From positions 1-29,097 of IMG/VR virus record IMGVR_UViG_3300024264_000127: a stretch of DNA of 29,097 nt; one strand, written 5' to 3'. Shown piece by piece: positions 11,557 through 25,133 of the stretch. The stretch is from a virus. A program made the translations under genes and the position numbers. The notes beneath the pieces are model-generated. The model worked only from the letters and a program-made list of their open reading frames with translations, was not told where the DNA came from and ran no database searches. Position 1 is the stretch's first letter; each line of letters begins with the position of its first letter.

Positions 11557-11672
11557 TCTGGGTCATTGCAGGCTCGCCACTTACTCTTTGACCAGAAGCA
11601 AGAAACTGGACGGTAGTAACCCACCCGCACCAACGGCATTTGAGAGATGCCGTAAACTCTTAAGAGGGTCAT
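11547..11672 (-). CDS. Possible small protein, 41 aa
   Basis: ATG at 11672 follows a good ribosome-binding sequence (GGTGGAG, five bases before the start) and the frame runs to a TGA inside the GC hairpin. The product (MTLLRVYGISQMPLVRVGYY, ending WRACNDPDPP) has no recognisable motif. The ribosome-binding site and position between two genes on the same strand support it, but the region could also be noncoding. Confidence 0.4.
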   Translation of the reverse strand: MTLLRVYGISQMPLVRVGYYRPVSCFWSKSKWRACNDPDPP

Positions 11673-16736: not shown

Positions 16737-16740
16737 AAAG

Positions 16741-16825
16741 CGGAGAGGGTGAGATTCGAACTCACGGAGGCTTTCACCTCGGCAGTTTTCAAGACTGCTA
16801 CCTTAATCCACTCGGTCACCTCTCC
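16741..16825 (-). tRNA. tRNA-Ser (anticodon TGA); its first 23 nt are also HNH coding sequence
   Basis: Class II tRNA with long variable arm. Acceptor GGAGAGG pairs with CCTCTCC; anticodon loop CTTGAAA on GCAGT/ACTGC; T-loop TTCGAAT. Bases 16803-16825, the acceptor 5' strand and D-arm, are simultaneously the last eight codons (partly) and the stop of the HNH gene at 16803-17120. Confidence 0.92.
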
Positions 16826-17120
16826 CTATGTTTCTTGACTTGTAAGTTGGAAGTTGAGAATCACAATTGTGACATACAAACCTGAGGTTGTCAAGTCTGT
16901 TGTCATTGTTGATGCCATTGATATGGTCAAGGACAAAACTCATAGGTTTACCTTGCCACTCAGGGGGCATACCACAGACAGAACATTGATAAGGAAGCAT
17001 CTTATTTTTTATGATACGTTCCTTGAGTCTGTGTCTTGGATAGGTGCTCTCTGCTACGAAGACTTCTTCGTCGGTCTTAGGAGGACCGTAAGCATTTCTT
17101 GGATTGTTTGCTCTTGCCAT
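16803..17120 (-). CDS. HNH endonuclease overlapping tRNA-Ser, 105 aa
   Basis: HNH homing-type nuclease: CSVCG near 46-50 and CHNC near 83-86 form a zinc site around the catalytic FVLDHINGINNDNRLDNLRFV. The last residues GRGDRVD and the TAA stop are encoded by the first 23 nt of tRNA-Ser. A diverged copy of the same 23 nt lies just upstream at 17156-17178, followed by a late promoter and the HNH ATG. This indicates insertion of the endonuclease gene into tRNA-Ser, with the element supplying a replacement 5' part of the tRNA. Confidence 0.92.
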   Translation of the reverse strand: MARANNPRNAYGPPKTDEEVFVAESTYPRHRLKERIIKNKMLPYQCSVCGMPPEWQGKPMSFVLDHINGINNDNRLDNLRFVCHNCDSQLPTYKSRNIGRGDRVD

Positions 17121-17144
17121 AACACTGGTTCAGGATACCAGAGT

Positions 17145-17152
17145 TATTTATA
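17145..17152 (-). promoter_or_regulatory. T4-type late promoter TATAAATA for the HNH gene
   Basis: Minus-strand TATAAATA three bases downstream of the tRNA-Ser fragment. It gives the HNH gene a leader of about 20 nt. Confidence 0.6.
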
Positions 17153-17155
17153 CAA

Positions 17156-17178
17156 TTAAACCACTCGACCACCTCTCC
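17156..17178 (-). pseudogene. Orphan tRNA-Ser 5' fragment, 23 nt
   Basis: Reads GGAGAGG, GTGGTCGAG, TGGTTTAA on the minus strand: acceptor 5' strand and D-arm start of a tRNA-Ser, matching 20 of 23 bases of the intact tRNA-Ser start at 16803-16825. Nothing of the anticodon or T-arm follows; the late promoter of the HNH gene does. Confidence 0.75.
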
Positions 17179-17183
17179 AGGTT

Positions 17184-17313
17184 TAAGAGAAGGGCAGATT
17201 CGAACTGCCATTTGCCAAAGGACTAACTTAAACGTTTCGTCTCGGACGGGAGGTAATCCGTCTCTGCCACCTTGAATTCTAGGCGACCACCATCCTAACA
17301 GGTGCTTCTCTTA
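17184..17313 (-). ncRNA. tRNA-like structured RNA, about 126-130 nt, identity unresolved
   Basis: The ends form a perfect 9-bp stem (TAAGAGAAG/CTTCTCTTA). At the 3' side is a perfect tRNA T-arm, GGCAG-TTCGAAT-CTGCC, directly joined to the acceptor-like strand. A CCTTTGGCAAAT segment before it resembles a tRNA-Leu variable arm. No normal D-arm or 7-base anticodon loop can be folded. Instead there are hairpins such as CGCCT/AGGTG and GACGG/CCGTC, both with 8-nt loops. The promoter at 17318-17349 predicts a start at about 17314, exactly at the closing stem. It is either a degraded or insertion-bearing tRNA-Leu, or a distinct tRNA-mimic. Confidence 0.4.
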
Positions 17314-17317
17314 TGGG

Positions 17318-17349
17318 ACAATCATACCAGAAGTGGTGATGATTGCCAA
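17318..17349 (-). promoter_or_regulatory. Hairpin-promoter repeat, copy B: TTGGCA-N17-TATGAT
   Basis: Minus strand TTGGCA (17344-17349) and TATGAT (17321-17326), spacer 17. Inverted repeat CAATCAT/ATGATTG flanks the spacer. Strongly similar to copy A at 17506-17536. Lies between tRNA-Ala and the tRNA-like RNA. Confidence 0.55.
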
Positions 17350-17497: not shown

Positions 17498-17505
17498 AAG
17501 ATGAG

Positions 17506-17536
17506 ACAATCATACCAGAAAGGTAATGATTGTCAA
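17506..17536 (-). promoter_or_regulatory. Hairpin-promoter repeat, copy A: TTGACA-N16-TATGAT
   Basis: Minus strand TTGACA (17531-17536) and TATGAT (17509-17514), spacer 16. The element is an inverted repeat, ACAATCAT/ATGATTGT extended by ACC/GGT across a bulged A, loop AGAAA. Lies between tRNA-Asn and tRNA-Pro. Confidence 0.55.
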
Positions 17537-20866: not shown

Positions 20867-21283
20867 TTACTCCTGATGAATGTTGCATGGTATTTTAGGT
20901 CCTGTAGGTGACAGTATATCTCTTCTACCCCATCTCTTTAGATTGCCCAATAGACTACGACGTTTTTGGTCTTCAGTTGTTCTGTAGTCTGCTAGGTAAC
21001 CATGCTTACCTTTATTGCTTTTTGCAATCTTCTTCTTATGTTCTTCAGTCTTTGCAAGACCAGCATTACTACTCTTCCTGCCACCCAATATTGACCGGGC
21101 CCTTTGTCTCTCCTCATCCATTTGATTAGACAGAGACTTATATGCAAACAAGTCTTCTGTCTTACCATACTTTTCGTATAATGTCAAGTGGGCTTGGGCG
21201 TGTTCTTCTATAGACAGCAACACAAGGTTGTCCGGGTCATCAGTGCCACCCATATGACGTGGTAGTATATGGTGTTTATGCAT
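20867..21283 (-). CDS. HNH homing endonuclease, 138 aa
   Basis: N-terminal HNH: MHKHHILPRHMGGTDDPDNL, VLLSIEEHAQAH, with paired His and the DNL/H motif. The middle and C-terminal part is Lys-rich with a NUMOD3-like stretch (EEHKKKIAKSNKGKHG). The predicted transcript start from the promoter at 21289-21317 is on or next to the start codon, so the mRNA may be leaderless. A later start at Met11 would remove catalytic His residues. Confidence 0.9.
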   Translation of the reverse strand: MHKHHILPRHMGGTDDPDNLVLLSIEEHAQAHLTLYEKYGKTEDLFAYKSLSNQMDEERQRARSILGGRKSSNAGLAKTEEHKKKIAKSNKGKHGYLADYRTTEDQKRRSLLGNLKRWGRRDILSPTGPKIPCNIHQE

Positions 21284-24525: not shown

Positions 24526-24721
24526 TGTCTCCAAGATATTCGAGTGAGTAGATTTCATGATCCTCAAGATTAGGGTCTAACCATTCGGCAAACTCTGACT
24601 GGATCGCATGAGCATCTTCTACAGATTTTAGCACATCATCCGTCTTCATGTCACACAGAATGTGCATTCTGTCAACTGCCCACTCATGAGTCACCTGTAG
24701 AGTCTTTTCCAAAATTTCCAT
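24518..24721 (-). CDS. Hypothetical acidic protein, 67 aa
   Basis: ATG at 24721 with GGAAAG upstream; starts MEILEKTLQVTHEWAVDRMH and ends EWLDPNLEDHEIYSLEYL. Highly acidic, helical. A longer frame from 24802 would lie within the GIY-YIG gene. Overlaps that gene and the lysozyme gene slightly. Function unknown. Confidence 0.7.
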   Translation of the reverse strand: MEILEKTLQVTHEWAVDRMHILCDMKTDDVLKSVEDAHAIQSEFAEWLDPNLEDHEIYSLEYLGDND

Positions 24722-25133
24722 AATCTTTCCGCATGTAACGGCCGAGAATGTTGCTATTATAGTATGCTGGTGCTCCGTTGTCAAGTGCCTCTGATAGCAC
24801 ATTATTTAGAAACAACTGCTTGGTCTCCTCAAAGTTACAATCTCCTTTCCTCTCATGAAGACTTAGTATCACTCTACTGAAGAACTCTTTGCCGTATCTT
24901 TTTATATCTTCCTTTAACTCAGGACAAGAACCATAATACTTCTTCCAATCAGATTCTTGTTTTACTTTTCTCTTTTTTCCTGGTGGGGTTCTGAACGACC
25001 AAAAGTATTTCCTTCCGATGTATTTTCTACCGGTGGTCTTATTGGTAATACAGTAAACAAAACCAAAGTGGTTCCCAATAGCATCAGACTCAAAAGGTTC
25101 ATTATTGTATATCCAAGAATTCTCATAACTCAT
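24684..25133 (-). CDS. GIY-YIG endonuclease-like protein, 149 aa
   Basis: GFVYCITNKTTGRKYIGRKYF (24-44 in pieces GFVYCI and KYIG) is the GIY-YIG core. SDWKKYYGSCPELKEDI and FSRVILSLHERKGDCNFEET follow as in T4-type phage members; I recall this protein in most cyanomyoviruses. May be a free-standing endonuclease or a domesticated nuclease. A late promoter (25156-25163) lies upstream. Confidence 0.8.
   Translation of the reverse strand: MSYENSWIYNNEPFESDAIGNHFGFVYCITNKTTGRKYIGRKYFWSFRTPPGKKRKVKQESDWKKYYGSCPELKEDIKRYGKEFFSRVILSLHERKGDCNFEETKQLFLNNVLSEALDNGAPAYYNSNILGRYMRKDYGNFGKDSTGDS

Follow-up and report, generated by a model that had tools for sequence, protein, structure and literature searches.

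HNH gene and tRNA-Ser(UGA) at the locus

The window is the whole stretch of DNA that was analysed, a cyanophage contig of 29,097 nucleotides from the IMG/VR virus record IMGVR_UViG_3300024264_000127 (positions 1 to 29,097). On its minus strand, an HNH endonuclease gene was found to run into a tRNA-Ser(UGA) gene. The features of the locus are given below; empty alleles are those of relatives which lack the HNH gene at this place.

16740..16825, minus strand: tRNA-Ser(UGA), a mosaic gene (ARAGORN; Rfam, 56 bits; comparison with empty alleles and contig L199)
16740..16780, minus strand: resident 3' part of the tRNA (41/41 identity to the empty allele)
16781..16825, minus strand: imported 5' part of the tRNA, comprising the acceptor 5' strand, D arm and anticodon arm (sequence comparison)
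16803..17120, minus strand: HNH endonuclease gene of 105 aa (ORF; CxxC...CxxC and DH-N motifs)
17125..17141, minus strand: hairpin CTGGT-ATCCTGA-ACCAG with a 7-nt loop, just 5' of the HNH start codon (sequence)
17145..17152, minus strand: TATAAATA, a T4-type late-promoter-like octamer 5' of the HNH gene (sequence; similar octamers 5' of many relatives)
17157..17178, minus strand: 22 nt left over from the 5' end of the resident tRNA-Ser (collinear with the upstream flank in S-SKS1)

The 3' end of the HNH ORF reads ...ATA GGG AGA GGT GAC CGA GTG GAT TAA, and the tRNA-Ser(UGA) starts from the second G of GGG, at 16825. The final 23 nt of the ORF, composed of two bases of the GGG codon, six codons and TAA, are nt 1-23 of the tRNA. 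A second copy of the tRNA 5' end is situated at 17156-17178, and it is identical at 20 of 23 positions. When the tRNA 5' end was compared with the upstream DNA, no shuffled version reached the observed score. A tRNA body 3' of this copy was not found in the window. A sequence-only reading of the window had described the 23 nt at 16803-16825 as both the tRNA-Ser start and the last codons plus stop of the HNH gene, and this was borne out by ARAGORN, Rfam and the ORF coordinates; the diverged upstream copy with no tRNA following it was likewise confirmed. The same reading treated the 23 nt as one unit. The 20/23 match is real, but only 22 nt (17157-17178) are ancestral, because the resident tRNA in the empty alleles reads GGTTTATGG and its 23rd base differs from the window copy; the 23rd matched base belongs to the junction. 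The end of the repeat exactly at the HNH stop codon, to which that reading had drawn attention, has no special meaning since TAA is simply a part of the tRNA sequence.

The octamer and the hairpin are both located between the old tRNA 5' end and the HNH ATG. The hairpin stem has the same sequence as the anticodon stem in the empty allele, and more of the old tRNA may therefore persist there with its loop changed. The assignment of the hairpin as an anticodon-arm relic is uncertain.

The conserved core of the HNH protein spans residues 17-97 of 105 aa. Its best family match is the PHROG 10822 HNH endonuclease (E=9.6e-30), and its match to Pfam HNH_3 (E=5.4e-5) is slightly under the curated cut-off. 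The AlphaFold2 model has a mean pLDDT of 83.5, with most of the core above 90, while the tRNA-encoded tail (residues 100-105) is predicted to be disordered with pLDDT below 50. Fold matches of the model in PDB were weak (best E 0.17), many of them being HNH enzymes, and a PDB sequence search with the protein gave no relative. The PHROG 10822 match, the HNH_3 match near the cut-off and the model assign to the protein a nuclease domain of the homing endonuclease class; its nuclease activity and cleavage site are predicted. The gene lies outside any group I intron or intein: Rfam gave no intron family in the window, and the tRNA is contiguous after the gene. A group I intron in the tRNA was rejected, as no match was found in the window at the Rfam gathering score and the locus shows a duplicated 5' end, not two exons.

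Several other features were observed in the window. An unannotated RNA-like element (17182-17312, minus strand) lies between tRNA-Ala and the tRNA-Ser remnant. An acceptor-like stem of 8 bp, a perfect T arm and several additional hairpins were recognised in it (-43 kcal/mol, z -2.74). It is conserved in S-SKS1, S-CAM7 and contigs L197 and L198, and is called by ARAGORN only at relaxed settings, as tRNA-Leu(UAA) with a 47-nt insertion. Near-identical 20-nt repeats at 17313-17332 and 17501-17520 are placed inside TTGACAATCAT..GGTATGATTGT units between tRNA genes. These units, which are also present in S-SKS1 and S-CAM7, resemble repeated sigma-70 promoters of the tRNA array. Elsewhere on the minus strand the window contains two homing endonuclease-like genes, a SegE-type GIY-YIG gene (24684-25133, Pfam E=2.2e-55) and a second HNH gene (20867-21283), and two Rfam cis-regulatory RNAs, wcaG (11566-11661, 85 bits) and PhotoRC-II (534-629, 76.5 bits).

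Empty sites and the mosaic tRNA-Ser

Empty sites were found in S-SKS1, S-CAM7 and the IMG/VR contigs L197 and L198, each with a single intact tRNA-Ser(UGA) at the locus; the HNH gene is thus present or absent at one locus among close relatives. The first 22 nt of the tRNA-Ser(UGA) in all four empty alleles match the upstream copy of the window, and the adjoining upstream flank also matches in S-SKS1, L197 and L198. From tRNA-Arg through the upstream copy, a distance of 564 nt, the window is 99.5% identical to S-SKS1, and the match ends exactly after GGTTTA. These matches identify the upstream copy as the original 5' end of the resident tRNA gene.

The window tRNA was compared with the empty allele in two parts. 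Nucleotides 1-45 differ at 12 sites (33/45 identical) while the last 41 nt show 0 differences (12/45 against 0/41, Fisher p=2.4e-4), and the switch point is just past the anticodon arm. The tRNA-Ser of a different cyanophage (L199/L200), without an HNH gene before it, is identical to the window tRNA at 44/45 and 36/41 positions of the two parts. A foreign stretch of nt 1-45 joined to the resident last 41 nt cannot result from a tandem duplication, and the import of a foreign 5' half can explain it; simple tandem duplication of tRNA-Ser was rejected on the foreign 5' half of the downstream gene.

The sequence-only reading had proposed that the HNH gene entered tRNA-Ser carrying a replacement 5' part, and the foreign 5' part, the resident 3' part and the empty sites support it. 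Related cyanophages with an uninterrupted tRNA-Ser, which that reading had named as the place to look, are those with the empty sites above, and 0/4 empty alleles carry both copies, an arrangement which it had considered as speaking against the proposal. The mosaic together with the four empty alleles would argue for insertion rather than loss in the window lineage. The tRNA-Ile and tRNA-Ser(GCU) which adjoin the empty site in S-SKS1 are absent from the window and also from S-CAM7, which may reflect a larger event or an additional deletion. An intact donor for the window element was not found.

HNH relatives and tRNA genes in other phages

The architecture of the window was found again in Enterococcus and in Citrobacter phages, where empty alleles that are nearly identical are available for comparison. 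Enterococcus phage EFDG1 is filled and vB_OCPT_Ben is empty with one tRNA-Leu(UAG), and their matched flanks are 99.9% identical. In EFDG1, the old tRNA-Leu(UAG) is retained up to GTGGCACT inside the anticodon loop and is followed by the HNH gene. The tRNA after that gene has a 5' half of foreign origin, and its 3' part, GTGAGGGTTCGAATCCCTCCTCTTGTA, is the resident one and does not differ from the empty allele. EFGrKN represents a second filled Enterococcus allele with the same insertion and a longer remnant. When the filled Citrobacter phage Michonne was compared with the empty Mordin, 11 nt of the old tRNA-Leu were found directly before the HNH start, as its ribosome-binding region, and a different tRNA-Leu(UAG) after the HNH gene. 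The same junction as in Michonne is present in mistaenkt and SP22. The HNH-less phages vB_EfaM_A2 (L195) and Moogle (L098) possess a tRNA-Leu(UAG) of the donor type found after the HNH gene in their relatives. They may be cured alleles from which the HNH gene was lost after homing, the order of these events being unpolarised.

The HNH family was sampled by two IMG/VR scans, one bacterial genome scan and a phage collection, giving 184 loci, or 105 after dereplication. In 46 of these dereplicated loci, a tRNA on the same strand begins no more than 60 nt from the end of the HNH core; random placement in the same loci gave a mean of 13.6 and a maximum of 24 in 1000 trials. Ser(UGA) is the linked tRNA in 32 of these 46 loci (expected about 2), although it makes up 13 of 320 (4%) of the other tRNAs there (binomial p ~4e-34). 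Leu(UAG) is the second commonest, with 6 of the 46 loci. ARAGORN missed a few further Ser(UGA) genes beside HNH genes which were visible by sequence and profile. In the family tree, the Ser label needs 9 changes against 32.6 in shuffles; the tree is built on 84 columns and 100 rows, so it indicates clustering only and clades are not claimed. These relatives with the same pattern in unrelated phages suggest a mobile gene family which lands in tRNA genes and rebuilds them.

To look for remnants beside the HNH relatives, the 400 nt preceding the HNH core were scanned with a weight matrix built from 16 nt of tRNA-Ser 5' ends, and hits of 12 bits and above were counted. Same-strand remnants were detected in 11 of the 38 Ser-associated loci, against 0/38 in each of three control regions (upstream on the other strand, and downstream on either strand). 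The match in L089 falls in HNH coding sequence and is probably due to chance, leaving about 10/38. The remnant in L104 is 26 nt long and contains the HNH ATG, that in L120 is 29 nt long and is accompanied by a hairpin with a 7-nt loop, and further examples were found in L126, L143, L144, L146, L152 and L167. Most remnants are followed by a TATAAATA-like octamer and then by the HNH start. In about 28 of the 38 loci a strong 5' remnant is missing; junctions of another kind, decay or plain insertion upstream of the tRNA therefore occur as well. Exact-flank IMG/VR scans for empty sites of L167, L120, L144 and L146 gave only filled contigs.

One explanation of these loci is passive insertion in the spacer before a tRNA, with the stop codon falling in the tRNA by chance and the tRNA differences arising from ordinary phage recombination. 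Enterobacter phage KKP_3262 (Karamvirus) resembles such a case. In comparison with Entb_43, its HNH gene is inserted just 5' of tRNA-Ser(UGA), the tRNAs have a difference in the D-loop only, and no tRNA remnant was found upstream of the HNH gene. The 15 of 46 linked loci without any HNH-tRNA overlap fit it too. However, it accounts neither for the pieces of the same tRNA's 5' end that precede the HNH gene, nor for the old tRNA broken within its anticodon loop in EFDG1, nor for Ser(UGA) and Leu(UAG) being so strongly favoured, and as a general account it is unlikely. In Enterobacter phage EnC15, an annotated homing endonuclease gene other than the present HNH gene (L097: 442-1056) was observed directly 5' of the same tRNA-Ser(UGA) as in KKP_3262, and this tRNA is one landing site for different endonuclease genes.

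In the other 31 of the 46 linked dereplicated loci, the HNH ORF overlaps the tRNA by 6 to 64 nt, with all three frames represented (11/10/10). As the frames vary in this way and the tail that the tRNA encodes in the window protein is predicted to be disordered, the coding overlap is incidental. The claim of the sequence-only reading that the HNH reading frame is itself the replacement was therefore not upheld, and purposeful coding of the tRNA by the HNH frame was rejected. What serves as the replacement is the DNA that follows the HNH core, and the coding overlap is a by-product. The overlap might still have been domesticated for regulation, for example if the RNase P cut removes the HNH stop and limits the HNH protein, with mobility long past; in the 31 loci tRNA 5' maturation must indeed destroy the 3' end of the message. 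Against this, the length and frame of the overlap vary freely, and the filled/empty polymorphism between near-identical phages indicates recent mobility. Regulation and mobility can also coexist, and domestication in place of mobility seems just as unlikely as passive insertion.

Least probable of all is that duplication came first, with two tandem tRNA-Ser(UGA) genes, an HNH gene arriving later in or between them, the upstream copy decaying to 22 nt and the tRNA never being rebuilt: tRNA arrays do gain and lose genes, and S-SKS1 has two different tRNA-Ser genes nearby (UGA and GCU), but the downstream tRNA is no copy of the resident one, all four empty alleles have a single tRNA-Ser(UGA) at the position, and the order of remnant, HNH gene and foreign half recurs with Leu(UAG) in Enterococcus, against an empty allele with one such tRNA.

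Other arrangements were also observed among the HNH loci. In L044 (1786-2283, on a contig shared with L153) the layout is mirrored: the HNH gene is preceded by an intact tRNA-Ser(UGA), and its stop codon is overlapped by 23 nt that copy the tRNA 3' end exactly (GGTTCGAATCCCTCCTTCTCCGC). L011, L024, L039, L042 and L043 have a tRNA-Ser upstream of the HNH gene without a clear 3' remnant. In L031 and L033, an apparent tRNA interrupted by group I intron-like sequence follows the HNH gene.

Proposed mechanism and comparison with known systems

The insertion, the remnant and the mosaic tRNA are present in the window and are repeated across phages. It is highly probable that a free-standing HNH homing endonuclease gene entered the resident tRNA-Ser(UGA) together with a foreign tRNA-Ser 5' half. 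The cut, which the HNH protein is predicted to make, would lie inside the resident tRNA gene, probably within the anticodon arm or close to it; this is suggested by the anticodon-loop break in EFDG1 and by the window tRNA, where the switch comes just after that arm. An anticodon-arm target would also explain the isoacceptor preference. The break would be repaired from a donor in which the HNH gene is directly upstream of its own tRNA-Ser and runs into it. On the left side, the repair would stop within the tRNA 5' half or close to it, leaving the resident 5' piece as a dead remnant upstream of the HNH late promoter. On the right side, recombination in the shared 3' half would produce a complete tRNA with the donor 5' half and the resident 3' half. 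The donor-type tRNA is predicted to resist cutting. With the tRNA gene serving as target, homology arm and restored cargo, the insertion would cost the phage no tRNA.

For a broader version of this mechanism the chances are about even. In it, a widespread HNH class would move as a unit of the HNH gene and a tRNA 5' half, the two halves of one isoacceptor gene acting as portable homology arms which would permit homing between phages without other homology. Each round would swap the 5' half of tRNA-Ser(UGA) or tRNA-Leu(UAG), giving a filled allele and then, when the HNH gene is lost, a cured allele of donor type, as the HNH-less A2 and Moogle suggest. Since the HNH stop codon is inside the tRNA, RNase P maturation would leave the HNH message stopless. 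Such a mechanism would explain how a selfish endonuclease gene can be inserted harmlessly and without an intron into an RNA gene, a role so far of introns and integrases, and it offers a way in which phage tRNA genes could turn over quickly and become mosaic. Among cultured phages there are natural alleles of the filled, the empty and possibly the cured type (EFDG1, Ben and A2; Michonne, Mordin and Moogle), which makes homing directly testable.

Among HNH enzymes, the Mob-type proteins (T4 mob genes) and F-Tfl (T5) are free-standing homing endonucleases. They and PHROG 10822 share with the present family the HNH domain and the free-standing gene, and several members have late-promoter-like octamers; no description of tRNA-restoring junctions or tRNA specificity was found for this group. 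In the tRNA arrays of mycobacteria and their phages, HNH homing endonuclease genes are noted to be more widespread than any other coding genes and are suspected of shaping tRNA diversity, according to the available text of two papers (PMC5966550, citing Pope et al. 2014; PMC6582537), where they are noted as neighbours and junctions, remnants or tRNA mosaics are not described. A literature search of partial coverage gave no description of an HNH gene rebuilding its target tRNA.

The nearest described system is SegB of T-even phages, a free-standing GIY-YIG homing endonuclease of the tRNA region (PMC13096335; Edgell 2010 PMC2988022), and a free-standing endonuclease gene among phage tRNA genes is common to both. 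SegB cuts within tRNA genes without isotype preference, and in T6 a microhomology is reported between the segB 3' end and the tRNA-Tyr 5' end (PMC13096335). In our own reading, the SegB cut motif RAWTSGAAC resembles the T-loop consensus. The window protein has an HNH domain and no GIY-YIG domain was found in it. Unlike SegB, which shows no isotype preference, the present HNH family is strongly associated with Ser(UGA) and secondarily with Leu(UAG), and where it inserts, pieces of the tRNA 5' half are left behind and a foreign 5' half lies downstream.

The integrases of phages, islands and ICEs which target tRNA genes restore the tRNA from element sequence and leave a remnant of the old gene at the far end. 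Restoration of an interrupted tRNA from element sequence is the one respect in which the window element works like them. The window insert, however, has no tyrosine or serine integrase, the HNH gene being its sole gene, and an integrase element was rejected on this ground. It likewise lacks an att identity block. Between the two copies 20 of 23 positions agree, and the replacement extends as far as nt 45; this is in keeping with break repair and co-conversion, not with site-specific exchange. The window element belongs with the free-standing homing endonucleases; it is like the tRNA-restoring integrative elements, yet it is not one of them.
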